DNA of 34,402 bases from IMG/VR virus record IMGVR_UViG_3300039106_000357, positions 33,314-67,715 of that record; one strand, given 5' to 3'. Positions 26 to 28,202 of the stretch are shown here, piece after piece. Below the pieces are notes generated by a model that was not told where the DNA came from, did no database searches, and was given only the letters and a program-made list of their open reading frames with translations. A program made the translations under genes and the position numbers. The first letter of the stretch is position 1. The number at the start of each line of letters is the position of its first letter. The stretch comes from a virus.

Positions 26-337
26 ATGGCCAATACAGATTCAAAGATTCGAAATAAAATTGCGGTTAGAACAAACATTTCCGAACCCAATCAGTTTCGT
101 GTAATTTTCCTAAATGACGCAGTCACCACAGCAGAGTTTGTTGCTGAGGTGCTCATGCTGAATTTCAATTACAATCAGACTCGTGCGATTGAAATTACCA
201 AAACAATTGACGCAGAAGGTTCAGCAGTAGTTGCAGTGCTACCTTATGAAATTGCTGAGCAGAAGGGCGTGGAAGTGACCATGCTGGCTCGCAACAACGG
301 TTTCCCACTTCAGGTGAAACTGGAAGAAAACGTCTAG
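26..337 (+). CDS. clpS: ClpS-like adaptor of the Clp protease (N-degron adaptor homologue)
   Basis: 103 residues that align along their whole length with ClpS, the adaptor that delivers N-degron substrates to ClpAP. Visible landmarks are the strand F24-R-V-I-F-L-N30-D31, the E37-F-V segment, and E75-I-A-E-Q-K80. The last corresponds to E79 and K84 of E. coli ClpS, on the face that contacts ClpA. By comparison with E. coli ClpS recalled from memory, the substrate pocket is altered: D36 becomes A32, the gatekeeper M40 becomes A36, and the pocket H66 becomes D62. The fold and ClpA docking may be kept while N-degron recognition is lost or changed. It is the first gene in the window, 45 bp before an exonuclease gene, so its own promoter is mostly outside. 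Possible roles are redirecting the host Clp protease or blocking its normal adaptor. Family assignment is firm; the function is inferred. Confidence 0.85.
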   Translation: MANTDSKIRNKIAVRTNISEPNQFRVIFLNDAVTTAEFVAEVLMLNFNYNQTRAIEITKTIDAEGSAVVAVLPYEIAEQKGVEVTMLARNNGFPLQVKLEENV

Positions 338-3170: not shown

Positions 3171-3174
3171 TGCC

Positions 3175-4113
3175 ATGAAAAAAACAATAATAACATTAGC
3201 ACTATTAAGTCTATTAACTGGTTGCGCCATCAACCAGAAGGGCGGCTTCGAGTACAGACCCGAAGTTGCTGAAAACAAACTGCAAAAAGAGTTTGATGCA
3301 GTTCCGCCACCCGAGGGCAAAAAGCTCACAGTGGCAGTCTACAGTTTCCAGGACAAAACAGGACAACGCCGACCAGTTGCCAACATTGCCAGCTTGAGTA
3401 CAGCAGTTACTCAGGGTGGTGAAACATTCCTAATCAAGGCCCTGCAGGATGTGGGCAAAGGACAATGGTTTGATGTTGTGGAACGTGTGGGCATTGACAA
3501 CCTAACCAAAGAACGACTGATCATTCGCCAGATGCGTGAAGCATATGAAGGTGCGGGTGCCAAACCACTGATGCCCATGCAGTTTGCTGGCATCATCATG
3601 GAGGGTGGTATCATTGGTTACGACAGCAGTACAGAATCAGGCGGTGCTGCTCACAGATTCTTGGGTATTGGTAAACAGACACAATACAGTAAAGACATAG
3701 TGACCGTCAGCCTACGTGCTGTCAGTGTCAACACAGGCAAGGTTTTAGCCACTGTGGCAATTACCAAAACTGTGTACAGTACAGCAGACAGTATTGCAGT
3801 TCTTCGTTTCCTGAACAACGGAACAGAAGCATTTGAGGCAGAGACAGGATTAACCATCAACGAGCCAGGTACTCTGGCAGTCAAGGCCACGGTGGAAGCA
3901 GCCGTTGTGGAATTGATCAAAGAAGGTGAGCGCAAGGGAATATGGGGTTATAAAGTCGGCGCTCTGCAAATTCAGGAGAAACAAGATGAGTTGGTTCAGA
4001 AGAACACGAACAGCCAAGAACCCACCCAAGCTGCGTCCTCACCGACACAGTCCAATGGCACTGGAGATGCAGGAACGGTCCAAAGAACTGGGACCAAAGA
4101 AGAAAAACAATAA
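3175..4113 (+). CDS. csgG: CsgG-like curli secretion channel lipoprotein
   Basis: 312 residues. The lipobox L-L-T-G-C puts the acylated cysteine at residue 17. The body follows CsgG: L-T-V-A-V-Y-S-F-Q-D-K-T-G-Q, then W-F-D-V-V-E-R, then the transmembrane hairpin region around the G-G-I-I-G-Y-D-S stretch, and a segment with V-S-V-N-T-G-K-V-L. CsgG forms a nonameric outer-membrane pore for unfolded curli subunits. Compared with E. coli CsgG it has an added C-terminal tail of about 45 residues, rich in Q, N, T, S and E. No clear ribosome-binding site precedes ATG 3175, so translation probably depends on coupling to csgF 4 bp upstream. In phages such a pore could export fibres or act in lysis; curlin genes just downstream favour export. 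Confidence 0.88.
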   Translation: MKKTIITLALLSLLTGCAINQKGGFEYRPEVAENKLQKEFDAVPPPEGKKLTVAVYSFQDKTGQRRPVANIASLSTAVTQGGETFLIKALQDVGKGQWFDVVERVGIDNLTKERLIIRQMREAYEGAGAKPLMPMQFAGIIMEGGIIGYDSSTESGGAAHRFLGIGKQTQYSKDIVTVSLRAVSVNTGKVLATVAITKTVYSTADSIAVLRFLNNGTEAFEAETGLTINEPGTLAVKATVEAAVVELIKEGERKGIWGYKVGALQIQEKQDELVQKNTNSQEPTQAASSPTQSNGTGDAGTVQRTGTKEEKQ

Positions 4114-4159
4114 TAAAAAGGAAGAGGCACAATAAATGTGCCCTGGAGGAGACAGTATC

Positions 4160-4945
4160 ATGAAAATAAAAACAATAAAATTGCTACTAATTCTTGGGTT
4201 TAGTGCTCAGCTTGCCTGGGCAGATGACAACAGCATCTATCTAAACCAGGCTGGAGATAATGCCACTATCACTATGTTGCAGGAGGGCGCGGGCAACCGT
4301 ATCCGTGCTATTCAGAGCATAGGCAACACTGGTAATACTGTGCCCAGTAATATCATTGGTGATGCCATCTCTGTTGACGTACAACAGATTGGTAGCGGCA
4401 ACATACTTAACCTGGGTGTTAACACCACGACTGCCAACGGCTCAAGTCCATCTAGTGTGTTCTATCGAGTCACTGGTAGTAATGCTGTGGGTACTATCAA
4501 CATCAACAATGCTGGAACTGGTATCGCAGCCAGCCAGGCATTGCACATTGACCAGACTGGCAACGGCGCCATTGCCACTGTCAGTATGCTGGGTACAGAC
4601 AACAGTCTAACAGTAACACAAGCTGGTGGTAACAATAATAAAATATTTGCCATACTTAATGCCAGCCAGGTCACAGCCATTGTGAACCAGACTGGTGGTG
4701 GCGGTAACGAAACCACACTGAACCTGACTGGTGACAAAGGGTATGTGGATGTGACAACAGTGGGTGCTACTAACATCACCAGTATCACACAGAGTGGTGG
4801 TGGGGCGAGTGGACACTATGCCAAATTGGACATCACTGGTTCCAGCAACAACACCACAATCAGTCAGAGTGGCACTATTGATACCACTGTGAACATCAAG
4901 AGTGTTGGAAGTGGTAACACATTCAACATAACCACTCGCAACTAA
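4160..4945 (+). CDS. Curlin-repeat secreted amyloid-type protein (CsgA/CsgB-like)
   Basis: 261 residues from ATG 4160, chosen because GGAGGAG lies 7-8 bases upstream and a Sec signal peptide (K-I-K-T-I-K-L-L-L-I-L-G..., ending A-W-A) begins there. The mature part consists of imperfect repeats of about 20-25 residues with the curlin pattern N-x-x-x-I-x-Q-x-G-x-x-N, for example S-I-Y-L-N-Q-A-G-D-N and L-T-V-T-Q-A-G-G-N-N. It is rich in N, G, T, S, Q and I, and almost free of Cys and Lys. Curlins fold into beta-solenoid amyloid after passing CsgG. The gene follows csgF and csgG on the same strand, so its product is the obvious cargo. Whether it is the major fibre or a nucleator cannot be told. 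Confidence 0.85.
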   Translation: MKIKTIKLLLILGFSAQLAWADDNSIYLNQAGDNATITMLQEGAGNRIRAIQSIGNTGNTVPSNIIGDAISVDVQQIGSGNILNLGVNTTTANGSSPSSVFYRVTGSNAVGTININNAGTGIAASQALHIDQTGNGAIATVSMLGTDNSLTVTQAGGNNNKIFAILNASQVTAIVNQTGGGGNETTLNLTGDKGYVDVTTVGATNITSITQSGGGASGHYAKLDITGSSNNTTISQSGTIDTTVNIKSVGSGNTFNITTRN

Positions 4946-4957
4946 TAGGAGTGAACG

Positions 4958-6070
4958 GTGAAACTATGGCCAGCTCTTGCATTTATCGGATGCTTGATAT
5001 TTGATGCGTATGCCGCAGTTGGTCAAGTTACCGAGCAGTTGAATGCACCCCCAAATATCACTAGGCAAAATAAAAATCTACCTGGCCCCAAAGGCACCGG
5101 CGTGGAAATGCAGGACGCTATCAAAACTGGCCAGGGCAAAGTTGGTATCACTTTTGAAGATGATACTCGAGTACAGATAACCGAAAACAGTAAACTGGTT
5201 ATTGACGACTTTGTCTACGACCCCAAAAGCAAATCGGGCAACAAACTGGCAGTAAAAATGGCCATGGGCACAATACGTTATGCCAGTGGTCAGATTGCCA
5301 AGAACAGTCCACAGAGTGTGGCAGTGACCACACCATCAGCCACCATTGGTGTGCGTGGTACTGACTTTACTGCCACTATTGAGGAACTGGGTGAGAGTAC
5401 TATTATTCTGTTGCCCAGTTGCCCACGTGACAAGCCACATCGTAACGTTAAGGATATTGAATCCAATTGTGTCACTGGCACAATTATAGTGGAAAGTGAT
5501 GCTGGTACTGTGATATTGAATCAGCCGTTCCAGGCCACTAGAGTTACCAGCAGAGCTGCCGTACCTATGAAGCCAGTGACACTGTCGCTGAGTGAAGATG
5601 CTATCAGCAACCTGCTGATTCTAAGTCCACCTAAAGAGATAGCTGAAGCAAATAAAACAGAAATAAAAATGCGTAATGCTCTGGATCGTGACTTTTTTGC
5701 ATTTAACGGACTGGACAATGCACTAGAAATGCAAATGAATTTATTCAACCAGGATCGCTTGGCTAGTCAGTTTCTAGAACAAGATTACCTGATTAATATT
5801 TTTTCTATATTAGACGGACAGAACGGTTTGAATGAGGATTTCCTTAAAGAAGTGGATACAGTGTTGCCTGACTACAAACGCAGTTCAGGCATTGTGGCAT
5901 TCAAAGATGATTTGATAGTGGAACTGTGTCGTGATGACGGCAGTAATATACAGTGTGTCACCACACCAAAGAATCAAAATAGTACCATATATCAGACACA
6001 ACGTAATCTGGAATTTAAAAACAGAGTAAATCAGGGAGGTAATACTATTATTACCTTGATACAACGATGA
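4958..6070 (+). CDS. FecR-domain secreted protein
   Basis: 370 residues starting at GTG 4958, with TAGGAG a few bases upstream. A signal peptide (about 1-19) is followed by a FecR domain at about residues 45-150. Its key parts are G-T-G-V-E-M-Q-D-A-I-K-T-G near the start, the V-Q-I-T-E-N-S-K-L-V-I strand, and the T-P-S-A-T-I-G-V-R-G-T-D-F signature. Classical FecR relays signals to an ECF sigma factor through an inner-membrane anchor; no sigma factor gene is visible here and no such anchor is seen after the signal. In bacterial genomes, secreted FecR-domain proteins often neighbour CHASE2-type cyclases, and one is encoded two genes downstream. The C-terminal 200 residues are unassigned. Its position between two curlin genes suggests a role at the cell surface or in sensing fibre export. 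Confidence 0.8.
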   Translation: MKLWPALAFIGCLIFDAYAAVGQVTEQLNAPPNITRQNKNLPGPKGTGVEMQDAIKTGQGKVGITFEDDTRVQITENSKLVIDDFVYDPKSKSGNKLAVKMAMGTIRYASGQIAKNSPQSVAVTTPSATIGVRGTDFTATIEELGESTIILLPSCPRDKPHRNVKDIESNCVTGTIIVESDAGTVILNQPFQATRVTSRAAVPMKPVTLSLSEDAISNLLILSPPKEIAEANKTEIKMRNALDRDFFAFNGLDNALEMQMNLFNQDRLASQFLEQDYLINIFSILDGQNGLNEDFLKEVDTVLPDYKRSSGIVAFKDDLIVELCRDDGSNIQCVTTPKNQNSTIYQTQRNLEFKNRVNQGGNTIITLIQR

Positions 6071-8625
6071 TGCGACTACCCAGCCTAATATTTGCATTTG
6101 TCATGCTACTGCTATTCAGCTGTGCGGCAAAGGCTCAGACAGAATACAACGCCATTGCCACGGCTTACGTTACAACTACGATTAGCCAGAACGTGGTATT
6201 CGACAGCACAATGCAACAGGGCGGCACATTTACCATGAGTGTACTGGCGCACAACGGTGGTGGTCGTGCTGGGCAGAGCGATACTGCTAACGTAAAGATA
6301 CAATTCTATAATAGCAGTGGTGGATTAATAACTTCAGTAAACTCCACTAACTCTGCCAACCTACCAAATCCAAATGCGGTATGTGGTAACCCTTGTATTG
6401 ATACTAGTGTTCCTTGGACAACACTAACTATCAGTAAAACTTTAACTGCGGCTGAAGCATCACAAGTGGCCTATGCTACAGTTAGTATGTATGGTATTGA
6501 CGGAAGCTTCTGGGCGGGTGACTATGGTCCGTGGTATCGTGCTCCAACATTTCAGAAAGATGGCGGCGGCAACTTATTATACAACCCAGAGTTTGGTCCT
6601 TACAATGGCATAACAGCACAGGGCTGGACAAGTAGCCCAGGCTTTGGCGCTTGCCAAGGTGCGTGGGGCGGATCAAATGCATGTATTGTTAACAGCGATG
6701 GCGTACCAGGATCTAGCACAGTTGGTCTAGTTGCCAACGCCAACGGTGGCGGGCCAAGTGCTACTGGTGGAACAACTAGCGGCACAGCTGGTGGATATAA
6801 CAACACGATGTCAGTAACCAATGCTGGTACAGGCGCAACAGCAGGTGCGGCACCTGCGCCCACTCCCACAGTGACAGGCACAAGTGTAACCTATACAACA
6901 AGAACAGTGACCAGTGGCAACGTCACCACTGTATATCGCACACCTGTGACCACAACAACTTATAGTGATGGTACTAGTACAAGTACAAACGGAACTGAAG
7001 CACTATATCAGACTAGAACCACATCCACAGTGATAACTAACAAAATTGTGGGTAACACTCTTACCACTATCAGTACCCCTATTACCACAGTTAACACAGG
7101 TGGAGTAGTTACAGTTGAAGCCAATGGCACACCAGTCAGCGTGGATCAGACTGTACAACGTGGACTGAACTATCAGGTGTGGCGTTACGATTCCAAAACA
7201 TACAGTTGCGGCTGGCTGGGTTGTATCTGGGACTTGGGTCGTAGAACTCCTAGCACCAATATCGGTAGTTACGGCAATCCTGTGCGTACAGGCTTAACCA
7301 CCAATGGCATGTATCTGGCTACCAATGCACGATTGCCCAACGGCGACTCCAGTTGGGTGGGTTACAACGACAACACTGTTATCCGTTACACTGGTACAAT
7401 TACTATTCCAATCACAGCAGATCACCCTGCTGGTTCAGTGTACAGAATTTACTTCTACAACAACACAGACGATGGCTTTAAACTGTTGATCAACGGCACC
7501 ACAGTTATCAATCAGAACTCCACTGACACCTGGCAGAAACTGATTGGTTACACCAGCAATGGCTGGCTGGATGTGGTTGCAGGACAAACTTATAATCTAG
7601 AAGGCTGGTACTGGAACGTGCTGGGTGGTGTGGGTCACAGATTCTACTGGGACTACGGTGCTGGTGTACAGGGTGTGCCCAACTCGGCATTTACCACTGG
7701 CACAATCTCCACAGCAACTATTGATACCACAGGTGTATCATATACAGGTGGCGTGGTGGATGTGACAGGCGCAGTGGTTGCCATGTATCCCGACTATGTG
7801 ACCAACAACAGCGGCAGCAGTATCACAGTGGCTGACGGTGCTGGTTCCAGTGCAATCACTGACGATCAACAGGCTGCTATTAATGATGTGACCACAAGAA
7901 AAGCTGCCATGTCCGCTGGCAACCATGTGTATATTGAACAAGTGGGCGACAGCAACACCATCACAATATTACAAACCAGCAACAACAATGTGGTAAAAGG
8001 TGTGGGGCAGACTGCCGCACTGATTAGCGGAGACAGCAACAACATCACCATACGTCAGGGCAATCCAGCTGGCAACACTGCTGGACGAAATCTATTGGAA
8101 CTCAACCTAGTGGGAGATGCCAACACTCTCAATTTAAATCAAGCACAAACCACAACAGGAGGTTATAACACTGCTGACAGCAACGATCACTATCAGCTGA
8201 TAAACGTCACTGGCAGTAGAAATTCCGTTACTACTGAACAGACCAACATCAACAGCACACAAGTGGGCCACTTTATGGAAACCACTGTAAGTGGCAACGA
8301 CAACACGCTGGACTTGCGTCAGGCATCTGCTGGCAAGACCATGTTTGTGAATGTGAATGGCAACAGCAACTCAGCTACAGTACAACAAAAGGATCTGGGC
8401 AACCACTATCTGGATTTAAAAATGACTGGCAACGGCAACAATGCTATCATACTACAGGAGGGCAATGTGGGTCACAAGGCCACTGTGGACATGAGTCGTG
8501 GATCAGGCGGTGCCAACATGCTGGATCTAAGTCAGAGTTCCAGCACCAACCCGCTGAGTTTTTCAATACAACAGACCTGCAATCAGGCCAACTGTGGCAC
8601 AGTAGTGATAAGACAGACGCAGTAA
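6067..8625 (+). CDS. Large secreted protein with C-terminal curlin repeats
   Basis: 852 residues. The start overlaps the previous stop (ATGA); a second ATG at 6070 is an equal choice. A signal peptide (1-23) is followed by a beta-rich N-terminal part of about 230 residues. Then comes a Thr-rich linker (about 250-370) and a domain at about 400-555 that resembles the PA14/lectin-like fold: I-T-A-D-H-P-A-G-S-V-Y-R-I-Y-F, D-D-G-F-K-L-L-I-N-G-T, and a Y-N-L-E-G-W-Y-W strand. Residues about 615-852 are curlin-like repeats (V-Y-I-E-Q-V-G-D-S-N, I-T-I-R-Q-G-N). This looks like an adhesive or cap-like subunit whose tail could co-assemble with the 261-residue curlin and whose head could bind sugar or another surface. 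The domain calls come from pattern recognition only; the curlin repeats are the safest part. Confidence 0.75.
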   Translation: MMRLPSLIFAFVMLLLFSCAAKAQTEYNAIATAYVTTTISQNVVFDSTMQQGGTFTMSVLAHNGGGRAGQSDTANVKIQFYNSSGGLITSVNSTNSANLPNPNAVCGNPCIDTSVPWTTLTISKTLTAAEASQVAYATVSMYGIDGSFWAGDYGPWYRAPTFQKDGGGNLLYNPEFGPYNGITAQGWTSSPGFGACQGAWGGSNACIVNSDGVPGSSTVGLVANANGGGPSATGGTTSGTAGGYNNTMSVTNAGTGATAGAAPAPTPTVTGTSVTYTTRTVTSGNVTTVYRTPVTTTTYSDGTSTSTNGTEALYQTRTTSTVITNKIVGNTLTTISTPITTVNTGGVVTVEANGTPVSVDQTVQRGLNYQVWRYDSKTYSCGWLGCIWDLGRRTPSTNIGSYGNPVRTGLTTNGMYLATNARLPNGDSSWVGYNDNTVIRYTGTITIPITADHPAGSVYRIYFYNNTDDGFKLLINGTTVINQNSTDTWQKLIGYTSNGWLDVVAGQTYNLEGWYWNVLGGVGHRFYWDYGAGVQGVPNSAFTTGTISTATIDTTGVSYTGGVVDVTGAVVAMYPDYVTNNSGSSITVADGAGSSAITDDQQAAINDVTTRKAAMSAGNHVYIEQVGDSNTITILQTSNNNVVKGVGQTAALISGDSNNITIRQGNPAGNTAGRNLLELNLVGDANTLNLNQAQTTTGGYNTADSNDHYQLINVTGSRNSVTTEQTNINSTQVGHFMETTVSGNDNTLDLRQASAGKTMFVNVNGNSNSATVQQKDLGNHYLDLKMTGNGNNAIILQEGNVGHKATVDMSRGSGGANMLDLSQSSSTNPLSFSIQQTCNQANCGTVVIRQTQ

Positions 8626-8641
8626 TAGTAGCACATTACTG

Positions 8642-8670
8642 TTGATTTTGCTGTGAAATCATGCTATTAT
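8642..8670 (+). promoter_or_regulatory. Sigma70-type promoter of the cyclase gene
   Basis: TTGATT at 8642-8647 and TATTAT at 8665-8670 are 17 bp apart, in the 81-bp gap between the curlin-tail gene and the cyclase gene. The start site would fall near 8677. It lets the cyclase and peptidase genes be expressed separately from the curli genes. No ribosome-binding site of note precedes ATG 8707. Confidence 0.65.
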
Positions 8671-8706
8671 AGCCCTTATTCGTGAAAACTATTTAAATAT
8701 TCAACG

Positions 8707-10773
8707 ATGACAAAATACCTAACAAGCATATATGCCGTAATTGTACTTCTTTTTGGTCTGATTACACTACGCTATCTAGACCCACTGCCAGTGGAAGTAC
8801 TAAGACTGAAAAATTTCGACTTGTTGCAAAGAGTTGAACCCACCATCAAGAGCGACAACATCGTTCTATTAGAGGTGACTGAAGTCAGTATTCAGAAATA
8901 TGGACAATGGCCCTGGAGCCGTGAACGCATGGCTGATGTGGTCAACCGTGCATTACAAGCTGGAGCCGCCGAAGTGGTGTTGCCCATTATTTTCAGTGAG
9001 ACTGACCGTCTGGGTGGTGATGCCAAGTTTGCCAGAACAATCAGCAACAAGCCAGTGGTGCTAGCACAGACTGCCACAGTACAGCCTGCCAAGCCCTACG
9101 CAGTGGGCCGCGGTGTTGCTGCCATTGGTGATGATCCACGCCCCTGGTTGTACAGTTGGGCTGGTGCCATTGCTCCTATTCCTGAACTGGCCCGCAGTGC
9201 CGCAGGCGTGGGTATTGTGGCCAGCGTACCTGAAGTGGATGGTGTCACTCGTCGTATTCCACAACTGGTTTACATTCAAGACAAAATTTATCCCAGCCTG
9301 GGCCTAGAAGCCCTGCGTGTGGCTGGTGGCGAAGTCAGCTACCAGGTCAAGACTGGTGACAGTGGCGTACAAGCTGTGCGTATTCCACAGTTTGGCACAG
9401 TACAAACAGACAGCCACGGTCAAGTATGGGTCAAGTGGAACAATGAATTCCAACGTCAGGATGTCACTGGTGAATTTGCCAACTTAAAAGATAAAATTGT
9501 TATTATTGGTATCACAGCCGAAGGCCTAAGCAACCCGGTGGCAACACCCAACGGTGCTCGAGCACCACATGATGTACAGGCACAAATCCTACAGACCATG
9601 ATCAATGGCACCACAATCAAACGCATGGACTATGCGGACTTTGCTGAACTGGCACTGTTGTTGGGCTTTGGTATTGTGCTGATCGTGCTGGTGCCACGTG
9701 CTAGTCTGATGTACACTCTGCCTGTATACGTGGTATATCTAGCAGGCGTGGGCTTGTTTGGATACATCAGCTATACACACTACAACACACTCTGGGACAT
9801 GAGTTGGCCCATCGTGGCTGGCACTGGTGTGTTCATGTACCTGTTGTTTAACAAGTACGCTAAAGAATTATTCCTAAAACTGCAAATCAAGAAACAGTTT
9901 GGTACTTACTTGAGTCCAGCAATGGTCGAGAAGTTACAAAAGAATCCAGAAATGCTACAACTGGGTGGCGAAAGTCGCGAGCTGAGTATTATGTTTACAG
10001 ACGTTCGTGGCTTTACCAGCATCAGTGAGCACTACGGCAAGGACGTTCAGGGTCTTACCAAGATCATGAACAGATACATGACAGCGATGACTGCCAAGAT
10101 TATCGAAAACGAAGGCACACTAGACAAGTACATCGGTGACGCACAGATGGCTTTCTGGAATGCTCCACTGGACGATGCCAATCATGCCAAGAACGCTGTG
10201 CGTACAGGTTTACAAATGATGGGGAGTTTAGATGAATTTAATCGCGAAATTACAGCAGAAGGCGTTCCTGCTTTCGGTATGGGTCTTGGCATTAATACCG
10301 ATACTGTGGTCGTTGGTAACATGGGATCAAGTCAACGCTTTGATTACACTTGTCTGGGTGATGGCGTTAATTTGGCTAGTAGACTGGAGGGCCAGAGTAA
10401 GCCCTACGGAGTAAAAATTGTCATTGGTGCCAAAACCAATGAGCAAGTTCGTGACGAATACTTCACACTAGAGTTGGATTGTATAGCAGTTAAAGGTAAG
10501 AAAGAAGGTGTTAACATCTTTACGGTACTGGAAACAGATGCAGGTGCAATGGTAGACTATCTATCCACCCGCGAGCATCATGACCTGATGCTACAATGCT
10601 ACCGTGAACAAAAATGGGCGTCAGCAATCAAGTTAATTAATGACAATCTCAAGGGTGAATTTGACGGACAGATGGATCATTATTATGACCTCTGGCTGGA
10701 GCGAATTGGAGAAATGAAGAATGCAAAGTTGCCTAAAGACTGGGACGGTGTATTCCGTGCTACCAGTAAATAA
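8707..10773 (+). CDS. CHASE2-domain class III adenylate/guanylate cyclase
   Basis: 688 residues. One N-terminal membrane segment (about 5-24) precedes a CHASE2 extracytoplasmic sensor (about 30-300; note N-I-V-L-L-E-V-T-E and the Q-W-P-W-S-R motif). Three more membrane helices lie at about 310-395. The cytoplasmic cyclase domain (about 420-610) keeps all the residues expected for activity: metal-binding D432 (F-T-D-V-R-G-F), K474 and D478 (K-Y-I-G-D), N555 and R559 (V-N-L-A-S-R). The base-selecting position is T548, which by family convention points to class IIIb (adenylate-type) cyclases. About 80 residues follow, of unknown fold. It probably makes cAMP in response to a periplasmic or membrane signal. 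It has its own promoter and lies after the FecR and curlin genes. A phage-encoded membrane cyclase would let the virus control host cAMP-CRP regulation. Family assignment is firm; the nucleotide made is inferred. Confidence 0.92.
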   Translation: MTKYLTSIYAVIVLLFGLITLRYLDPLPVEVLRLKNFDLLQRVEPTIKSDNIVLLEVTEVSIQKYGQWPWSRERMADVVNRALQAGAAEVVLPIIFSETDRLGGDAKFARTISNKPVVLAQTATVQPAKPYAVGRGVAAIGDDPRPWLYSWAGAIAPIPELARSAAGVGIVASVPEVDGVTRRIPQLVYIQDKIYPSLGLEALRVAGGEVSYQVKTGDSGVQAVRIPQFGTVQTDSHGQVWVKWNNEFQRQDVTGEFANLKDKIVIIGITAEGLSNPVATPNGARAPHDVQAQILQTMINGTTIKRMDYADFAELALLLGFGIVLIVLVPRASLMYTLPVYVVYLAGVGLFGYISYTHYNTLWDMSWPIVAGTGVFMYLLFNKYAKELFLKLQIKKQFGTYLSPAMVEKLQKNPEMLQLGGESRELSIMFTDVRGFTSISEHYGKDVQGLTKIMNRYMTAMTAKIIENEGTLDKYIGDAQMAFWNAPLDDANHAKNAVRTGLQMMGSLDEFNREITAEGVPAFGMGLGINTDTVVVGNMGSSQRFDYTCLGDGVNLASRLEGQSKPYGVKIVIGAKTNEQVRDEYFTLELDCIAVKGKKEGVNIFTVLETDAGAMVDYLSTREHHDLMLQCYREQKWASAIKLINDNLKGEFDGQMDHYYDLWLERIGEMKNAKLPKDWDGVFRATSK

Positions 10774-15535: not shown

Positions 15536-17575
15536 TCACCACTGGCCTTGGCCAGTGTAGTGATAGTCAAAACTCAAATCCAGGTCTTTATACTGATCCA
15601 TAGTGGTCTGATAATGATGGTCAAAGTCCTCAATCACCTCAGTGTTGCCACTCAACTGTCTAGCACGGTCACTGGCTACACTCTTGGCACCACGGAAGTT
15701 GAGATAGTGCCAGGAATTGGGTCTTTGTTTGTGTACATAGTTAAAGTCAGCAGTCCAGGCACCTGATTTGTCTATTTCAAATTGGATCTGTGCAGAAAAG
15801 TCGCAACTGATCTGTGCGCCAAACTCACCGTCATCCAGTTGTGGATCAAATTGTATTTGTATACGATAGGCACCACGTGTTCTCCAGAGCATCCGTAGTA
15901 ATGGCCAGATTTCATTAACCACACTGTCTGCCAATTGCCCTTTACCAGTGTTGATGATGTTGAAATCGAACTGTTCGTATTCAATTTCTCTTAGATCCTG
16001 TTCAAAAAACTCCAGCTGATAGTGATGTGCTACACTGGGCCTATCACCAAACGTTATATGGCGTTCGTTTTTAAGGCGTTGTAGCAAGATGGCCACTGAC
16101 TTCAGTCGTATCAGTCTGTTGATCTTGGTATTACCAAAGTCCTTGGTAATCCAGGCACCTTCATAATTGACTTCAGCAACACCAAAACGTGCCATGTGTT
16201 GTGCCACAATGGTCTCAGGTGGAATATTAAAACCACCACCAGCGGCAATCACACTAAGAGCGCTGTTTCGCATACGCCACATCATGGTCATGGTTTCGTA
16301 TACATGTTGCGGGCGTTCAGTAGGGAAGCCCATGATCCAGGTGCTGAATGCTTCCACCCCCACACGGGCGCCATCCAGTAGATTTTGCTCAATCTCTGCC
16401 ACAGTAGTGCCCTTGTCCATGTCTTTTAGTATTTGTTCAGACCCTGACTCAATACCAAAGCTCAGTGAGATACATCCAGAGTCTGCCAGGTCCTGGAAGA
16501 ACTCTAGATCCATACGTTCATCACAACGAGCATAGCCGGTCCAGTTGATTTTAATACCCGATGCAATGATGCCTTTACAGAATGCACGTAGTTCTTTTAG
16601 ATTGCCGTTGACTAGACTGTCCAGGAACCAGACCACATCTACACCACGGTTGTAATACAAGTCCACCAGTTCGTTTACCACCTTGTCTGCAAGACGGCCA
16701 CGATATTTCCAGAAATGTGTTTCAGCGCAGAACACGCATTTGGCAATACACCCGCGACTGAGTTCAAAGTTGATGCCATTAGGTATGCCGTAGTCTTCGG
16801 GCGGAAAGTAACTGTAGTCGGGTGCTGGCAACATGTCCAGGTTCAGGCGTTCGCCCTCCTGTTGGCGTATGTGCATCTGTTTGTCCAGTGGTTTGCCCGA
16901 CTCAATGTGCTCTAGTATGTCCAACAACATCTGTTCACCTTCACCAGTGACAATGTAATCGTATTCAGGCTCAGGAGTCCAGTAGCCATTCTGTGTATCA
17001 GGCCCGCCAATGATGATTTTGATGTCAGGGCGGCGGCGTTTCAGCTCACGTGCCATCCACTTGGTGGGCTCAGCATTGCAATAGTACAAGCAGAAGCCCA
17101 CAGCAGTGAAGTTCTGCTCTAATATGATATCCACATATTTCTTTAGGAAAGGTTCCACATACTGATGCAGATCATTCCAGTAACTCTGCCCCACCCATTT
17201 CCAATCGCGTGTGCCTGACCAGGGATTGAAGTCTAGGCCTTCCCAATTACACTGGTCCTGATTGGCTTTGGCATTCAGATCGTATGCGTGTGTGCGATAC
17301 CCAGCTTGTTTGGCCACAGCGGCCAGCCGTGCCAGATTGTAGGGTGGGAAATTCACAGCCCATTCGGGAAGTAATACAAAAGCAATACTAGTATTTCGTG
17401 TTACATTTTCAATCTGAACCTGCTTGAGATTGCTCTGTGTTTTCAGTTTGGAATAGGGCAACAGTGCATCCAGAATCTTTTGTTCACGGGTGCCGTCAGC
17501 CACTTCCACTTTTCTTGCCACTGGGGTCTGGCGCAGATCCATGATTTTTTGCCAGCCGTATTTTTTAATTGACAT
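15536..17575 (-). CDS. Radical SAM protein with an N-terminal B12-binding-like domain
   Basis: 679 residues, minus strand. Residues about 62-225 look like the cobalamin-binding Rossmann domain found before many radical SAM cores (P-P-Y-N-L-A-R-L-A, I-I-I-G-G-P-D-T, I-V-T-G-E-G-E), although no D-x-H-x-x-G is visible. The radical SAM cluster is C276-x3-C280-x2-C283 in S-R-G-C-I-A-K-C-V-F-C. It is followed by the G-I-E-S-G-S motif and a long C-terminal region (about 460-679) without a clear family. Enzymes of this type perform radical methylation or rearrangement. The start codon lacks a recognisable ribosome-binding site. The 3' end abuts the methyltransferase-like gene. Substrate unknown; modification of a phage structural protein or a sugar are possibilities. 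Confidence 0.85.
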   Translation of the reverse strand: MSIKKYGWQKIMDLRQTPVARKVEVADGTREQKILDALLPYSKLKTQSNLKQVQIENVTRNTSIAFVLLPEWAVNFPPYNLARLAAVAKQAGYRTHAYDLNAKANQDQCNWEGLDFNPWSGTRDWKWVGQSYWNDLHQYVEPFLKKYVDIILEQNFTAVGFCLYYCNAEPTKWMARELKRRRPDIKIIIGGPDTQNGYWTPEPEYDYIVTGEGEQMLLDILEHIESGKPLDKQMHIRQQEGERLNLDMLPAPDYSYFPPEDYGIPNGINFELSRGCIAKCVFCAETHFWKYRGRLADKVVNELVDLYYNRGVDVVWFLDSLVNGNLKELRAFCKGIIASGIKINWTGYARCDERMDLEFFQDLADSGCISLSFGIESGSEQILKDMDKGTTVAEIEQNLLDGARVGVEAFSTWIMGFPTERPQHVYETMTMMWRMRNSALSVIAAGGGFNIPPETIVAQHMARFGVAEVNYEGAWITKDFGNTKINRLIRLKSVAILLQRLKNERHITFGDRPSVAHHYQLEFFEQDLREIEYEQFDFNIINTGKGQLADSVVNEIWPLLRMLWRTRGAYRIQIQFDPQLDDGEFGAQISCDFSAQIQFEIDKSGAWTADFNYVHKQRPNSWHYLNFRGAKSVASDRARQLSGNTEVIEDFDHHYQTTMDQYKDLDLSFDYHYTGQGQW
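15540..15557. terminator. Hairpin at convergent gene ends
   Basis: CACTGGCC-TT-GGCCAGTG is a perfect palindrome located in the last codons of the radical SAM gene and right after the methyltransferase-like stop. It could end transcription from both sides, but there is no U-tract, so it may only protect 3' ends. Confidence 0.4.
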
Positions 17576-22274: not shown

Positions 22275-23168
22275 GTGCGCTTTAAAGACCTAATTGATGA
22301 AAATTTTAAAGACGGTCGTCACCCTGAAGACAAGGGTGACAGCGCACGTCATGGCATACCCAAACATGCTAGCATAAGTACTTTGCGTAAAATTGCCAAG
22401 CAGGGTGGGCGTCGTGGACAACTGGCCCATTGGCAAGCCAATATGCGTAGTGGAAGAAGAAAAAAGAAAATGAATGAAAGTGATCTAGTTAGCGACAACA
22501 TCGCCTATCATCAGGACCTGAGTCCTGCTGCCTGGGCCAATGGCAGTCTGCGTCCTGAAGTGAGATACAAACTGTTGAAGACAGCTCAGGTGTTTATCAG
22601 CTATCTGGACATTCCTGAATTTAAAATCACTGATGTGGTGTTGACTGGCAGCATGTGCAATTACAACTATACACAGTTCAGTGACTTTGATGTACATGTG
22701 GTCACACGTTACAGTGATCTACAATGCGACGACATTGCTGAAGCATTCTATCGTGCTAAAAAAGAATTATGGAACAACGCACATGATGTGATAGTCAACA
22801 ATCATGATGTGGAATTGTATGTGGAAGACGTAAAACAGCCACCAGTTAGTGCAGGTGTATACAGCCTACTGGATGACAAATGGTTGAAAGAACCACAGTA
22901 TGCTCCACCCACTATTGACGACAAAGCAGTCAATGCCAAGGTGGTGGACCTGATGACACAGATTGACCGAGCACTGGATTCAGATGCAGACAGCACAGAC
23001 ATTCAGCGCCTAAGAGAAAAGATTCGTAAAATGCGCCGCAGTGGACTGGACCGTGAGGGCGAGTTCGGTGTAGAGAATTTGGCATTCAAAGTTCTACGAA
23101 ACATGGGCTATCTAGACAAGATAAGTAAATTATATAACCACAAGCAGGATCAGGAACTAAGTTTATGA
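22275..23168 (+). CDS. Nucleotidyltransferase-fold protein with capsid-targeting-like N-terminus
   Basis: 297 residues from GTG 22275, with TAAGGA upstream. The start M-R-F-K-D-L-I-D-E9 has an I-D-E site. A basic module follows (about 12-65: G-R-H-P-E-D-K-G-D-S-A-R-H-G-I-P-K-H then many K and R). The catalytic domain has G125-S126 and S-D137-F-D139-V-H, the hallmark of the polymerase-beta-like nucleotidyltransferase superfamily. Targets in this family range from tRNA and antibiotics to proteins (AMPylation, MNT toxin-antitoxin); the substrate here is unknown. The C-terminus has helical R/K-rich repeats. The stop overlaps the next ATG (ATGA). It is the first member of the six-gene M-R cluster. 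Confidence 0.7.
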   Translation: MRFKDLIDENFKDGRHPEDKGDSARHGIPKHASISTLRKIAKQGGRRGQLAHWQANMRSGRRKKKMNESDLVSDNIAYHQDLSPAAWANGSLRPEVRYKLLKTAQVFISYLDIPEFKITDVVLTGSMCNYNYTQFSDFDVHVVTRYSDLQCDDIAEAFYRAKKELWNNAHDVIVNNHDVELYVEDVKQPPVSAGVYSLLDDKWLKEPQYAPPTIDDKAVNAKVVDLMTQIDRALDSDADSTDIQRLREKIRKMRRSGLDREGEFGVENLAFKVLRNMGYLDKISKLYNHKQDQELSL

Positions 23169-24337
23169 GATTAATAGAACTATATGATAAAGTCGCTGAG
23201 GCTGAAGCCAAGCGCACGTTAGGTGGCTTTGACGTCACTCCATTGGACATTGAACATCAGGACACTGATGAAGCAATTAAAATAGACGCACCACAAACAA
23301 AGTGGAGCCGTGACGATATGCAAGACTACTTGGGTCGTATCAAAAATGACACCAAGACCAAAGCAGATAAATTTAAACCTATTATTCATGGTAGTAACAT
23401 CAAGGCTATCACAAAAGATGACGGCGGCACTGAGTGGGACCTGGATGACCTGACTCAACAGATCACCACACGCCCCACCATGATCCTGGGCACCAATGCC
23501 AAAATGGCCAAGAGTAAAGAAGAAGGTGCCATGACCTATGACCTAACATTGCCTGCTCTGTCAGGCATTGTTGTGGATGAAGAGACTGGTGAGTTTGTGG
23601 AAATTAAAACCTGCCCAGGCGCTGGTGAATGTCAATTGTTCTGCTACGCTCGTAAGGGTGGCTATCGCATGTTCCCCGCTAGTAGCATGTCGGCAGCTCA
23701 AGCATTGAACTTCCTGGTTAACGATCCACAGGGATATATGGCTATGTTTGACCGAGAAGTCAAGGCAGCACTTGCTCGTACGCAAAAAGCAGGCGTCAAG
23801 TTACTGGTGCGTATACACGATGCTGGTGACTTCTTTAGTAAAGAATACTATAACCTGGCAATGAATGTGGCCAAGAACAATCCTGGTGCCACCTTCTACT
23901 TCTATACCAAGATGGGCGACATTGCCACTGATGCCAATGCACCAGCCAACGTGGTTGGCCAGTTCTCGGGTGGCGCACAAAGCCGCGAAGTGAAGAAAGT
24001 GGCATTCACACGTAATGCTGGTCGCCATGTCAAGGACGCTATCACGTTACCCAAAGACATGTTCCGTGATTTGTTTACGACAGATGCCAAAGGCAAGTAT
24101 GTGAAGGATGCCAAAGGCCGCACACAAGTCAAGAGTGAAGCTGACTGGAACCAGTTTAAAGACAAACTGGCGTCTGCTTACAACATTCCTGCAGACTCCA
24201 TTGTCACATACGATCAGATTCTGCGTATTCCCGAAGGTCCTAAACCCAAGTGGAACGTGGTTGTTTTTCCAGCTGGTCACGGTGACCTAGCTGCCGCCCG
24301 TCTAGACGTGGCACACCAGTTCCTAATGTTCCACTAA
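23165..24337 (+). CDS. GP88-like protein
   Basis: 390 residues. The start M-R-L-I-E-L-Y-D-K-V-A-E12 contains a V-A-E site. The distinctive motif C-P-G-A-G-E-C-x4-C-Y-A at about 150-162, followed by a basic K-G-G-Y-R, matches the phage 'gene product 88' family as I remember it. V-R-I-H-D-A-G-D-F-F at about 218-227 and the pattern Y-F-Y-T-K are also shared. The family's function is not known; the cysteines may bind a metal or an Fe-S cluster. The start overlaps the previous stop and the next gene starts 1 bp after this stop, so the gene is within the late operon. Confidence 0.6.
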   Translation: MRLIELYDKVAEAEAKRTLGGFDVTPLDIEHQDTDEAIKIDAPQTKWSRDDMQDYLGRIKNDTKTKADKFKPIIHGSNIKAITKDDGGTEWDLDDLTQQITTRPTMILGTNAKMAKSKEEGAMTYDLTLPALSGIVVDEETGEFVEIKTCPGAGECQLFCYARKGGYRMFPASSMSAAQALNFLVNDPQGYMAMFDREVKAALARTQKAGVKLLVRIHDAGDFFSKEYYNLAMNVAKNNPGATFYFYTKMGDIATDANAPANVVGQFSGGAQSREVKKVAFTRNAGRHVKDAITLPKDMFRDLFTTDAKGKYVKDAKGRTQVKSEADWNQFKDKLASAYNIPADSIVTYDQILRIPEGPKPKWNVVVFPAGHGDLAAARLDVAHQFLMFH

Positions 24338-24338
24338 A

Positions 24339-25895
24339 ATGCGAGCCACTGAGTTTGTCACTGAAATATTTGCCCCTGGTAAGAAAAACTGGGAGTGGGC
24401 ACGCCTTGGTACTAACGAAGTATCTGCGTTTTTTAAAGTAGGCGGTAGAGAATATCTTTGGCAAGCGTTTACTGGTGTTAGTAATCCTACTAAGTGGGAA
24501 ATACAATTTCGTTTAATAAGAAAACCTGATGAAGACCCTGATGATTTAGACTTATTCGGACAAACTGGCACAGGTAACTCAGCAGAAGTGATGTCAACCG
24601 CTGTGGATATCACCCGCGCATTCTTAAAAGAATACGGACTTGATAGAGTAGAAGAAATTACATTCAATGCTAAAGAAGATAGTCGCATCGCACTGTATGC
24701 CAAGATGATTAAACGACTGTTGCCTGACTGGGACTTGTATAGTAGAAAAGATTCAGTGAATGGTATGACATTTTCTCTTACAGATCGTAGAGCATATGAC
24801 AAGCCTGAGAACAAAATAGGTGAAGCATTTAATCAACCATACAAAATGCAATGGGAAAAGAGTGAAGCTGATGACTCTATGGATGCATTGGTTCGATTAC
24901 CCGACGGATCAAACCTAAGTATCATGTTCAACCAGGAGTACGGTGACGAAGGTGAAGAAGTTACGCAAGTTGAGTTCTGGAGAAATAACAGCCAAGAGGT
25001 CACTGGTGAAGGTGATGCTCAACGAATCTTTGCTACAGTGTTGGCCGCCATTCAGAAGTACATTAAAAAACACAAACCGCAAAGACTGAGTTTTTCAGCC
25101 AGCAAAGAAGTTGACCCATCTACGTACTATGGACCAGATGATGTTGTGCCAAACCCTGAAAGTCGTGCCAAGTTATACGACAGACTGGTTCAGCGTTATG
25201 CTAAAGCGTGGGGCTACAGAGCTTTCCGTGCTGACAATGGTGATTTAGTTATATATGAATTGAGTAGATTAAAGCCTGGTGTGGCGGAAGATATTTCGCG
25301 TAGAGGATTCCTAGGTGGGATGGCTGCGGCCGCCGCTGGCATGGCCGCTACTGATGCTGAGGCAGGTAAAAAGAAACCAGCGAATGACAAGAATGCCAAG
25401 GCCATGAACACTAAGATTGATCCCAAGTATCAATTGGCACACGGCGACGATTTGCCTGTACTCAGTAACAATCCCCGTGTGGAGATTGCTGTACAAAAAG
25501 CAGCCAAAGCTCATGGCATCACACACCCTACCGAGCTGGCACAGTTTATGGCACAAACCAATCACGAAAGCTGGGACTTTAGCAAACTGTATCAAGTGGG
25601 TGATAAACGTGTGTACGGTGGTAAAGGCATCATCCAGTTAACTGGCAAAAACAACTACGCCGCAGCCAGCAAGTATGCTGGTGTGGATCTGGTCAAGAAC
25701 CCCGAGCAGGCAGCTAAACTGGATGTAGCACTAAAGGTAGCCATCTGGTTCTGGAAAAACGAAGTACGCCGCTATGCCAAGACACCTGAACAGTTTTTAA
25801 ACACCAAGTTGATCACACGCATTGTGAACGGACCTGACATGAATGGACTCAAGGACCGTGAAGAGAAATTTAAGAGATACTTGAGCATACTATGA
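24339..25895 (+). CDS. Multi-domain polyprotein ending in a GH19-type muralytic domain
   Basis: 518 residues starting M-R-A-T-E-F-V-T-E9. There are two similar alpha/beta domains: about 12-150 with E-D-S-R-I-A-L-Y-A-K-M-I-K-R-L near its end, and about 165-310 with E-S-R-A-K-L-Y-D-R-L-V-Q-R-Y at the same place. They are separated by I-G-E162. Then come G-V-A-E317, a twin-arginine-type signal (S320-R-R-G-F-L-G-G followed by an Ala-rich stretch to D-A-E-A342), and a glycoside hydrolase 19 / lysozyme-like domain (about 370-518). That domain has N-H-E410-S-W-D-F with the probable catalytic glutamate and G-K-G-I-I-Q-L-T-G-K-N-N-Y. The layout suggests cleavage into separate proteins. The muramidase/chitinase part would be an endolysin or an injected wall enzyme. 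Confidence 0.75.
   Translation: MRATEFVTEIFAPGKKNWEWARLGTNEVSAFFKVGGREYLWQAFTGVSNPTKWEIQFRLIRKPDEDPDDLDLFGQTGTGNSAEVMSTAVDITRAFLKEYGLDRVEEITFNAKEDSRIALYAKMIKRLLPDWDLYSRKDSVNGMTFSLTDRRAYDKPENKIGEAFNQPYKMQWEKSEADDSMDALVRLPDGSNLSIMFNQEYGDEGEEVTQVEFWRNNSQEVTGEGDAQRIFATVLAAIQKYIKKHKPQRLSFSASKEVDPSTYYGPDDVVPNPESRAKLYDRLVQRYAKAWGYRAFRADNGDLVIYELSRLKPGVAEDISRRGFLGGMAAAAAGMAATDAEAGKKKPANDKNAKAMNTKIDPKYQLAHGDDLPVLSNNPRVEIAVQKAAKAHGITHPTELAQFMAQTNHESWDFSKLYQVGDKRVYGGKGIIQLTGKNNYAAASKYAGVDLVKNPEQAAKLDVALKVAIWFWKNEVRRYAKTPEQFLNTKLITRIVNGPDMNGLKDREEKFKRYLSIL
25278..25290 (+). repeat. Linker repeat copy 1 (GGTGTGGCGGAAG)
   Basis: 13 bases encoding G-V-A-E, identical to the copies at 27471-27484 and 27627-27640 in another gene. 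It sits at the junction between the second alpha/beta domain and the twin-arginine-like segment. Confidence 0.8.
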
Positions 25896-26593
25896 GAGCC
25901 AGAGAATTTATCACACTGCGAGAAGGCCTAGCAGTCGACGTGCCCAACGAAGACTGGTTAGAGGATGCTATTGCATACTCCATGAAAAAAGGTCGCAACA
26001 GTTTCGGTGTGCCATATATGAACAAAGTCACAGCATATCTGACTGGCGACCGGTATGTGGAGATTCCTACCAAACTGGCAGCCAGTTTTCCAGGCATGCG
26101 AGACGAACAAAAGAACGTGCGTCCAAAAGATCTAGAAGCCATCATGAAAATCATGAAGGACACCGGACGTCTGCCGTCGTTGGACAGCGGCAAAGAATAC
26201 TATCCATTTATCCGTGTGGCATACAATGGTGAAGCCTGGGTCAGTGAAGGCAACCATCGCATCATGGCTGCTGCCAAATTGGGCTGGCCCACTATTAAAG
26301 TGGAAGTGCAATACAACGACGGTGGTGAGCGTGTTAAACATGGCCCACTATACCCAGGCAAAATTGGATTGGGTAATGTTACTGAAGGCCGTTACAAAAT
26401 TGAAGAGGCACCTACTGGTCTCACATACTTTGGGTATCCATGTACCAAGGACTGTTCGGGACATCGTGCTGGCTATAACTGGGCCGTGGCCTGGAACATC
26501 ACTGATCCTGACGACTGCCCCTATCGTCCATCACACAACAGCTTCTGGGAAGGCTGCCGCAGTCTAGGAGATCCGCAAGATGAGAACGAATGA
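25892..26593 (+). CDS. ParB/Srx-fold-like protein with cysteine-rich C-terminal domain
   Basis: 233 residues, start M-R-A-R-E-F-I-T-L-R-E11 with an L-R-E site. The core has W-V-S-E119-G-N-H-R-I-M-A-A, which matches the E-G-x-H-R motif of ParB/sulfiredoxin-like nucleases and CTPases. After V-T-E165-G and I-E-E172-A there is a short C-terminal module (about 176-225), G-Y-P-C-T-K-D-C-S-G-H-R-A-G-Y-N-W, with three further cysteines and S-H-N-S-F-W-E-G-C, possibly a metal- or disulphide-stabilised domain that also occurs in other phage proteins. The start overlaps the previous stop (ATGA). Function unknown; nucleic-acid binding is likely. Confidence 0.6.
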   Translation: MRAREFITLREGLAVDVPNEDWLEDAIAYSMKKGRNSFGVPYMNKVTAYLTGDRYVEIPTKLAASFPGMRDEQKNVRPKDLEAIMKIMKDTGRLPSLDSGKEYYPFIRVAYNGEAWVSEGNHRIMAAAKLGWPTIKVEVQYNDGGERVKHGPLYPGKIGLGNVTEGRYKIEEAPTGLTYFGYPCTKDCSGHRAGYNWAVAWNITDPDDCPYRPSHNSFWEGCRSLGDPQDENE

Positions 26594-26640
26594 ATCCGTG
26601 ATCGGGTTAAATATATTAGCACCTGTTGGAAGAATTTAAC

Positions 26641-26898
26641 ATGAGAATATTTGAAATAGACGAATCACTACACGACTGGTTCACGGACAAATGGGTGCGA
26701 TTTGGTCCTGACGGAAAAATACGCGGTGATTGTGCTAGAGGTTCAGACTCTGAAGGCAAGCCCAAGTGCCTGCCACAGAGTAAGGCGCATAGTTTAGGCA
26801 AGAAGGGTCGTGCAAGTGCAGCCGCACGTAAGCGCAGGCAAGACCCCAACCCGGAAAGAAAAGGAGCGGCTATTAACGTGGCCACTAAAAAGAAATGA
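26641..26898 (+). CDS. Small basic M-R-cluster protein
   Basis: 85 residues from ATG 26641, with GGAAGA upstream; the longer reading frame would begin at TTG without a site. The start M-R-I-F-E-I-D-E8 gives an I-D-E site early. Then comes W-V-R-F-G-P-D-G-K-I-R-G-D-C-A-R-G and a Lys/Arg-rich tail with K-G-R-A-S-A-A-A-R-K-R-R. The small size, strong basic charge and late context suit an internal head protein that binds DNA. I have the impression that similar modules recur in phage proteins. The stop overlaps the next ATG. Confidence 0.6.
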   Translation: MRIFEIDESLHDWFTDKWVRFGPDGKIRGDCARGSDSEGKPKCLPQSKAHSLGKKGRASAAARKRRQDPNPERKGAAINVATKKK

Positions 26899-28202
26899 GA
26901 TTAGATGAATTTGAAAACCAATCATTGTCATGCTCAGAGTGTGGCGGCCCAGCCTTTACAGACTTAATACTGGCTGAAAAGAAAGATGCATGTTATAGCA
27001 AAGTTCGGAGTCGCTATAAAGTATGGCCCAGTGCTTATGCATCAGGTGCGTTAGTACAGTGCCGCAAGAAGGGTGCTGCCAACTGGGGCAATAAATCAGA
27101 AAACGTAGAAGAAGAAAGTATAGCAAACGAAAAGTGGAGCCAAAAGTACAAGAGTTCTATCAACTGTGATAATCCCAAAGGGTTCAGTCAACGTGCCCAT
27201 TGTGCTGGACGTAACAAGAACGAGAATATAAATGAGTTCGCCCCAGATGATGGTGGTGGCGATGGTGGTGAAGAAGATACATTACACAAGTACGCTCGTA
27301 TGTGGTACAATGGTGACTTGGGTACACAACAGAAAGTAGAACAGATCCTGGATCGCATGGGTTGGGAAATTGGCGAAATAGAATCTGAAGAGGGCGGCGC
27401 CTTTGTTGTGCAGGCTGGTGACGAAGACGGTAAAAGTTACATCGGCTTTGCTCCAGAAGATTTGTCTGAAGGTGTGGCGGAAGGCTTGGGTGATACACAA
27501 AAGAAGATTGAAGATACTATCAACAAGTTAGAAGATAGATTGAAACACGCCAAGTCAGATGAACAATGGGATAGAATTAGTGCCCGCATTGAAAGATTAC
27601 AAGCAGGGTTAAAGCGTAGTAAGCAAGGTGTGGCGGAAGGCCATGACGATGACGGATATGGATACAAGTCGTTCACTGCTGAAGATATCATGAAGCTGAT
27701 CAATACTGGCAACTGGGAAGCCATGGCAGACATTACTCCTGGCAGACATCTGCAACTGCGTAACACTCGCAATGGCAAGACCACAACAGTACACGTCAAG
27801 CAAAGCATGACAGAAGATCCAGATGCACTGTTCGACATGATTGAAGAAATGGTGGAACACATTGCACAACAACACGGTGTAGATGCCGAGTTTATCTGGG
27901 AATACCTGGAGCCAGTGAGTGATCAGGAACTGTTGGAAACTGCGGCCTGGAAACGTAAAGCAGGCAAGAACAAAAACGGTGGACTGAACCGCAAAGGCGT
28001 CATGAGCTATCGCCGTGAGCACCCTGGTAGCAAATTACAGACAGCGGTGACAACCAAGCCCAGCAAACTCAAGCCAGGTAGCAAGGCGGCCAAACGCCGC
28101 AAGAGTTTCTGTGCTAGAATGTCGGGCATGAAGGGTGCAATGAAGAAGCCCAACGGCAAACCCACACGCAAAGCATTAGCATTGAGAAAGTGGAACTGCT
28201 GA
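26895..28202 (+). CDS. Multi-module polyprotein with repeated G-V-A-E-G linkers
   Basis: 435 residues, start M-R-L-D-E-F. Modules, separated by [I/L/V]-x-E sites at L-A-E28, I-N-E114, V-A-E196, V-A-E248 and L-L-E348, are: a Cys-containing basic part (29-114, D-A-C-Y-S-K-V-R-S-R-Y and N-P-K-G-F-S-Q-R); an acidic domain starting F-A-P-D-D-G (115-196); a short coiled coil (197-248, I-E-D-T-I-N-K-L-E-D-R-L); an alpha/beta part (249-348); and a C-terminal basic domain (349-435) with N-R-K-G-V-M-S-Y-R-R-E, K-R-R-K-S-F-C-A-R-M and R-K-W-N-C. The last resembles a DUF6321-type phage module. The first, third and fifth are basic or helical and may bind DNA. No enzyme motif is seen. It looks like a packaged polyprotein and ends the late operon. 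Confidence 0.65.
   Translation: MRLDEFENQSLSCSECGGPAFTDLILAEKKDACYSKVRSRYKVWPSAYASGALVQCRKKGAANWGNKSENVEEESIANEKWSQKYKSSINCDNPKGFSQRAHCAGRNKNENINEFAPDDGGGDGGEEDTLHKYARMWYNGDLGTQQKVEQILDRMGWEIGEIESEEGGAFVVQAGDEDGKSYIGFAPEDLSEGVAEGLGDTQKKIEDTINKLEDRLKHAKSDEQWDRISARIERLQAGLKRSKQGVAEGHDDDGYGYKSFTAEDIMKLINTGNWEAMADITPGRHLQLRNTRNGKTTTVHVKQSMTEDPDALFDMIEEMVEHIAQQHGVDAEFIWEYLEPVSDQELLETAAWKRKAGKNKNGGLNRKGVMSYRREHPGSKLQTAVTTKPSKLKPGSKAAKRRKSFCARMSGMKGAMKKPNGKPTRKALALRKWNC
27471..27484 (+). repeat. Linker repeat copy 2 (GGTGTGGCGGAAGG)
   Basis: Encodes G-V-A-E-G between the acidic module and the coiled-coil module of the 435-residue protein. It is identical over 13 bases to the copy at 25278 and over 14 bases to the copy at 27627. 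Confidence 0.8.
27627..27640 (+). repeat. Linker repeat copy 3 (GGTGTGGCGGAAGG)
   Basis: Second copy within the same gene, encoding G-V-A-E-G between the coiled coil and the following module. Sequence around the two copies is unrelated, so the repeat is limited to the linker. Confidence 0.8.

Follow-up and report, generated by a model that had tools for sequence, protein, structure and literature searches.

The internal proteins of phage T4 (IPI, IPII, IPIII and Alt) carry a capsid-targeting start (CTS) and are cut by gp21, which cleaves after L/I-x-E; the ten-residue CTS of IPIII is enough for head targeting (PMC9026906). T-even internal proteins, which inhibit restriction enzymes, have been catalogued on the basis of their signal (PMC12373910). 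DarB and the other Dar proteins of phage P1 are antirestriction cargo with an N-terminal head-targeting signal, for which 30 DarB residues are enough, but they share no start consensus and no joint is described for them (PMC9024508). In phiKZ and SPN3US, many head proteins, including inner body and ejection proteins, are cut after x-x-Glu (at S/A-x-E) by a gp21-like protease; in the parts of that literature available to us the cuts mainly remove propeptides, and a DNA-constant joint or swapped modules do not appear there. The polyvalent proteins of phages and plasmids combine many unlike domains in one chain and are predicted to be injected with the DNA; according to the available portion of the source, they are processed by built-in peptidase domains or left unprocessed (PMC5512222).

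Here we describe a cluster of six genes that likely encodes the injected head cargo of a T4-like phage. Judged from their sequences, its products would be modular polyproteins that are freed by a prohead protease and shuffled by way of a joint. As in the T4 internal proteins, unlike proteins share a short N-terminal tag that ends in [LI]xE, the cargo is basic or enzymatic, and relatives encode an S77 protease. In contrast to the T4 proteins, the tag has 9 residues and reads MRAxEF rather than MKTYQEF, there are many more cargo types, and one chain can string together several modules, with predicted sites in its interior, a joint of constant DNA and an embedded Tat-like signal. Compared with the polyvalent proteins, as far as the available part of their description goes, the difference is that predicted head-protease sites mark each border and that the border DNA is constant.

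The window, the whole 34,402-nucleotide stretch analyzed, runs from base 33314 to base 67715 of a virus record of 67,715 bases (G000), which is itself a fragment. The record has 30 genes in common with G001 (352 kb) and 30 with G012 (266 kb). The material is metagenomic contigs with mechanical gene calls, and most relatives are fragmentary. All six ORFs reported earlier are present, and gene 5 begins at ATG 26641. An earlier note on this DNA had also given the operon one late promoter upstream. This was not upheld: TATAAATA-like matches occur in the window at the chance rate (22 found and 21.9 expected), the nearest one on the cluster strand being CATAAATA, with one mismatch, at 21406. In the table and below, a slash after Glu marks a predicted cut.

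Features of the cluster, with positions given in the window.
Feature	Coordinates	Strand	Description
Gene 1, 297 aa	22275..23168	+	Start MRFKDLIDE/N; NFKDG basic module; nucleotidyltransferase-like domain
Gene 2, 390 aa	23165..24337	+	Start MRLIELYDKVAE; GP88-family domain (Pfam GP88, E 1.6e-29)
Gene 3, 518 aa	24339..25895	+	Start MRATEFVTE/I; two DUF6934-like modules; Tat-like signal; GH19 lysin
GVAE joint, gene 3	25278..25290	+	GGTGTGGCGGAAG, exact repeat
Tat-like signal, gene 3 residues 318-343	25290..25367	+	DISRRGFLGGMAAAAAGMAATDAEAG; Pfam TAT_signal, 17.2 bits
Gene 4, 233 aa	25892..26593	+	Start MRAREFITLRE/G; weak ParB-like module (PHROG, E 9e-4)
Gene 5, 85 aa	26641..26898	+	Start MRIFEIDE/S; strongly basic module, pI 10.4; phrog_727, E 1.5e-16
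Gene 6, 435 aa	26895..28202	+	phrog_727 and DUF6321 matches; C-terminal DUF6321
GVAE joint 1, gene 6	27471..27483	+	GGTGTGGCGGAAG, exact repeat
GVAE joint 2, gene 6	27627..27639	+	GGTGTGGCGGAAG, exact repeat

The six proteins share a tag despite their different Pfam and PHROG domains, and tags of about ten residues ending in [LI]xE, as in a T4-type CTS, are found in the record. The strict T4-type start, M[KR]xx[EDQNS][FLIVM][FILVM]?x(1-2)E, occurs in 8 of the 88 ORFs of the 67.7-kb record, where the internal positions of these proteins lead one to expect 0.12 (P = 6e-13, with kinship ignored). The earlier note described the start pattern for the six cluster genes. The pattern is far above chance, but it is not confined to the cluster: 6 of the 8 strict matches fall in a second cluster to the left of the window (contig 3491-10182), which includes a PHROG virion structural protein. 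Under that note's looser rule (M[KR] plus [ILV]xE within residues 2-13), 11 of 88 ORFs match, or 12 when gene 5 is read from its ATG. These 12 are all six cluster genes and six genes of the second cluster, so the search for further proteins with the same start, which had been proposed as a check, yielded six more.

The strict start is also enriched in G001 (11/435), G002 (8/100) and G012 (7/318), and the start consensus in relatives with about 30 common genes is M-[RK]-A-x-E-[FIL]-[ILV]-x-E. We also took 303 starts from all contigs collected, with M[RK]xx[ED][FIL] as the sole criterion. Of these, 42% have Ala at position 3, about 70% have I, L or V at position 7, and 56% have Glu at position 9, a peak that no neighboring position approaches. 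The starts of T4 IPII and IPIII (MKTYQEFIAE), used as a positive control, fit the start pattern.

By T4 precedent, proteins with such tags would be packaged, cut and injected, and we asked whether a suitable protease accompanies them. We sought gp21 (S77) and gp23 in the 67.7-kb fragment and found neither. G001 encodes T4-like gp17, gp18, gp20, gp21, gp23 and UvsW, with a scaffold-like gene between gp21 and gp23. The gp21-like protease that the earlier note proposed to look for is absent from the fragment but present in a relative with 30 common genes. Of 31 joint-bearing or related records (G000 included), 7 contain both S77 and Gp23 and 24 contain neither, the latter being linear and probably partial; every one of the seven related records with gp23 also has a T4-like gp21. 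With most relatives fragmentary, the link with S77 is drawn from these seven records. At the position of the T4 gp23 cut, as placed by T4 precedent, the seven gp23 proteins carry L-x-E before [SNT]: LAE/S, LKE/N, LAE/S, LME/N, LLE/N, LVE/S and LAE/T. These gp23 sites resemble VAE/G. Capsid-targeted cargo cut by a gp21-like protease, the core of the earlier proposal, is well supported at the sequence level by the start consensus, the IPII and IPIII control, module borders exactly at [ILVM]xE (below), and S77, gp22 and gp23 in relatives; the absence of gp21 and gp23 from the contig itself stands against it.

Three further features go beyond what had been proposed before: predicted cut sites inside the proteins, the GVAE joint with its conserved DNA, and the Tat-like signal within gene 3. 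All of the N-terminal sites quoted earlier exist in the proteins (IDE9, VAE12, VTE9, LRE11, IDE8 and LAE28), and comparison with homologous modules in other phages separated them: support is good for E9 in genes 1 and 3 and for E8 in gene 5, moderate for E11 in gene 4, and weak for E12 in gene 2. In gene 6, LAE28 lies inside a conserved module and is doubtful. In gene 2 an internal site, TDE36/AIKIDAP, is supported better than E12, and the module of this gene follows GVAE in L029 and L150. Gene 1 (phrog_36119, E 7e-49; Pfam NTP_transf_2, weak) contains the NFKDG module, which stands alone behind a T4-like start in L005 (MKSFSDFIDE/NFKDG) and comes after GVAE in L039 and L233. In gene 3 (Pfam Glyco_hydro_19, E 8e-9; DUF6934, E 5e-8), IGE162/A splits the DUF6934-like modules and is followed by the joint GVAE317/D; the second DUF6934 module lies behind MRAQEFVAE in L153 and behind GVAE in L062. 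Gene 4 has a C-terminal Cys-containing module behind VTE165, and its VDVPNEEW module is found behind MRACEFIIE in L180 and behind other E-ended joints. The homologous start of gene 5 in L008 is MRADEFMNE/NLRKWFKEKWVRFG.

Gene 6 has at least four joints supported by homologues of each site (ANE79/K, GVAE196/G, GVAE248/G and LLE348/T). DUF6321, which follows LLE here, follows MISFKEFISE in L005 and MRANEFIIE in L195, and the KWSQKYK module follows MKAYEFITE in L133 and GVAE in L060 and L081. Two or more unlike domains therefore lie in one chain both in gene 3 (DUF6934 and GH19) and in gene 6 (phrog_727 and DUF6321). In the AlphaFold model of gene 3, confidence falls below 50 at segments 1-6, 157-163 and 314-373, which overlap or adjoin E9, E162 and E317. 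The corresponding segments of gene 6 (17-77, 107-122, 246-262 and 341-348) fit E248 and E348 and adjoin E79 but do not fit E196; GVAE196 lies in a moderately confident region, which counts against the reading proposed here. In a fold search, nothing matched gene 3 at E <= 0.001; GH19 structures ranked among the top matches and GNAT-like folds appeared too, both weak.

Chains cut into many pieces could also be parts of the prohead core or scaffold that are degraded and expelled at maturation, with no injection. In T4, gp21 cuts the core proteins, gp22 among them, into many pieces (PMC9026906), the pieces between the joints of gene 6 alternate between acidic and basic (pI 4.1 to 11.9), and in Eistla DUF6321 lies between scaffold and capsid genes. 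DUF6321 is also a stand-alone untagged gene in a podovirus, which counts against reading it as cargo. Nevertheless, we consider a core role unlikely, since the modules include enzymes (GH19, GP88 and nucleotidyltransferase) and vary widely among related phages, as would be expected of cargo.

The commonest internal site is Q/K/E-GVAE-G/D/A/E, and the DNA word that encodes it, about 18 bp long, hardly varies (AGCAAGGTGTGGCGGAAGGC). In the window, GGTGTGGCGGAAG has three exact in-frame copies, all between modules of genes 3 and 6. Scanning viral contigs with AAGGTGTGGCGGAAG returned at least 120 stretches, and the 13-base core, where it lies inside ORFs, is in frame as GVAE in 120 of 121 cases (first 80 loci among the matches listed). 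The context is usually QGVAEG, there are often several copies per protein, and the joint connects unlike modules. Since that scan fixes the DNA, we also ran a codon-blind scan for KQGVAEG: 99 of its 134 in-frame sites (74%) are spelled GGTGTGGCGGAA (GGT GTG GCG GAA), when codon use in the first-scan loci (GGT 0.44, GTG 0.22, GCG 0.095, GAA 0.77) predicts about 0.7%. Thus, the GVAE word has been kept or copied at the DNA level.

A bacterial origin of the joint was rejected, as the word is essentially absent from 84,980 bacterial genomes: the joint 20-mer had 2 matches there, with about 0.5 expected by chance, and neither lay in a phage-like cargo gene. Two other candidates were set aside. A second 13-mer present in three copies, TACTGAAGGCCGT, codes for TEGR, is spread over three unrelated genes, an exonuclease-like gene among them, and was not counted as a joint; GVAE in a radical-SAM gene (~16171-16183) has another DNA spelling and is probably due to chance. 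Among the matches listed from full-text PMC literature, which leaves subscription journals out of scope, no paper with QGVAEG or GVAEG concerned phage or described the joint; most were on alpha-synuclein.

If GVAE marks a cut, the same modules should start behind other cut sites elsewhere. With the stretch behind each GVAE, 60 residues at most, we sought the same modules at places not preceded by GVAE. At these homologous starts, P1 is Glu in 67%, compared with 6-16% at P2-P8, and [ILVM]xE stands directly before the module in 57%, compared with a background of 1.7% (relatives are counted repeatedly in all such figures, and P values over homologous sequences are overstated). When drifted copies of the joint were dropped, [ILVM]xE still preceded 133 of 281 modules (47%, against the same 1.7% background). 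In 80 of 109 module families, such a border was seen at least once. Of the homologous module starts, 42 are close to a protein N-terminus, many directly behind a tag such as MRAGEFITE (for example, MRAGEFITE/AWSEKYK), MRAQEFVAE or MKIREVINE. A minority of borders have no Glu at P1, and these count against reading the borders as cut sites.

These borders bear on a simpler idea, that GVAE is a mere recombination joint or flexible domain linker and the proteins stay whole and multidomain. Neither strong DNA conservation nor module mixing needs a protease, and uncut injected multidomain proteins exist, for example the N4 virion RNA polymerase (PMC5512222). We regard this idea as improbable. It leaves unexplained why homologous borders end in [ILVM]xE even when they are not joint copies, why the same modules lie behind E-ended N-terminal tags, and why a Tat-like signal is placed after Glu, deep inside gene 3.

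This signal lies 317 residues into the protein, directly after GVAE and before the GH19 lysin. Its Pfam score is below the cutoff of 22.7 bits, and the motif [ST]RRxFL[K/G] and a hydrophobic stretch are present. Every homologue of the Tat module that we found sits right after Glu, with the motif starting two residues past it. The module lies directly behind a tag in L007 (MRASEFVAE/DLSRRDFLGG) and L084, behind other sequence in L008 and L009-L017, and before other cargo in L157 (behind QGVAE) and L195 (behind TDE). The predicted cut after E317 would make the Tat-like signal the new N-terminus. Phages often carry GH19 endolysins, and gene 3 could be read as an ordinary late endolysin in an ordinary late operon, its start motif a by-product of shared ancestry. 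We find this very unlikely: one and the same nine-residue start heads unrelated domains in both clusters of the contig, and a lysin that stays unprocessed would not normally carry a Tat-like signal in its interior. Least credible of all is that ribosomes bind or initiate internally at the joint word (GTG GCG GAA read as Met-Ala-Glu), since, even though a few ORFs begin MAE/G at the joint GTG, Met after the joint shows no enrichment (0 to 0.022 by position against a background of 0.022) and long ORFs read through the motif.

We therefore return to injected, head-processed cargo as the preferred reading. The nine-residue tag, M-R-A-x-E-F-[ILV]-x-E and its variants, would steer each protein into the prohead core, and a gp21-type prohead protease would remove it by cutting after [ILVM]-x-E. 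The same protease would split the polyproteins of genes 3 and 6, and probably those of genes 2 and 4, and the released enzymes and basic peptides would pass into the host along with the DNA. Cutting within gene 3 would uncover the Tat-like signal, so that the host could export the injected GH19 lysin. The simplest layout would be tag, module, joint, module. We suggest that the joint word of about 18 bp serves as short homology for in-frame exchange of modules between phages, which would account for its constancy; the alternative is selection on the DNA for another reason. Whether the joint is a wider exchange code of T4-like phages in many environments, permitting in-frame swaps with guaranteed release by the prohead protease, modules that use Tat included, we consider evenly balanced.

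If this reading is true, the T4 targeting trick would be a general, readable code from which injected proteins and their released domains could be listed by sequence. The code would be usable in many uncultured phages, where most such proteins are "hypothetical." It would predict exact cut sites and an unusual route for a lysin, from the head to the cytoplasm and on to the periplasm, and it would explain in concrete terms how phages could shuffle their effectors quickly and in frame.

A further group of capsid-targeting-like starts, the short T4-type N-terminal stretches on putative head cargo, was observed to the left of the window in the same virus record (G000), and a PHROG virion structural protein adjoins it. 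In the locus that holds this group (L002), a nucleotidyltransferase-like gene lies at 6236, and its reading frame is interrupted by a run of N at about 6720-6760.

We observed that the phage carries a curli-like gene set; the larger relative G012 likewise has CsgF, CsgG, a curlin-repeat protein, FecR and the cyclase. ClpS and ClpX, both recognised by Pfam, are phage encoded, and so is a protein that looks Hsp20-like from its sequence. The 13-mer ATTTGACAATAAA occurs in 16 copies across the 352-kb relative G001 (L241-L258), where it is possibly a promoter or regulatory repeat.

Positions of the features
Feature	Members or starts	Position
Second group of starts	MKIKDIILE, MKITEVILE, MRFYEILRE, MRFAEIIRE	G000 3491-10182 (L002)
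Curli-like set	CsgF, CsgG, curlin-repeat protein, FecR-domain protein, large protein with curlin-like repeats, CHASE2 adenylate/guanylate cyclase	window 2712-10773
Clp and Hsp20-like genes	ClpS, ClpX, Hsp20-like protein	window 26-337; L003 8963-10186 and 12852-13292
DUF6321-like gp45	Pelagibacter phage Eistla	L139 2944-3189

DUF6321, the C-terminal module of the sixth gene of the main cluster, also has a stand-alone counterpart without the tag, gp45 of the podovirus Eistla. This protein is encoded between scaffold and capsid genes, which suggests a head role for DUF6321.
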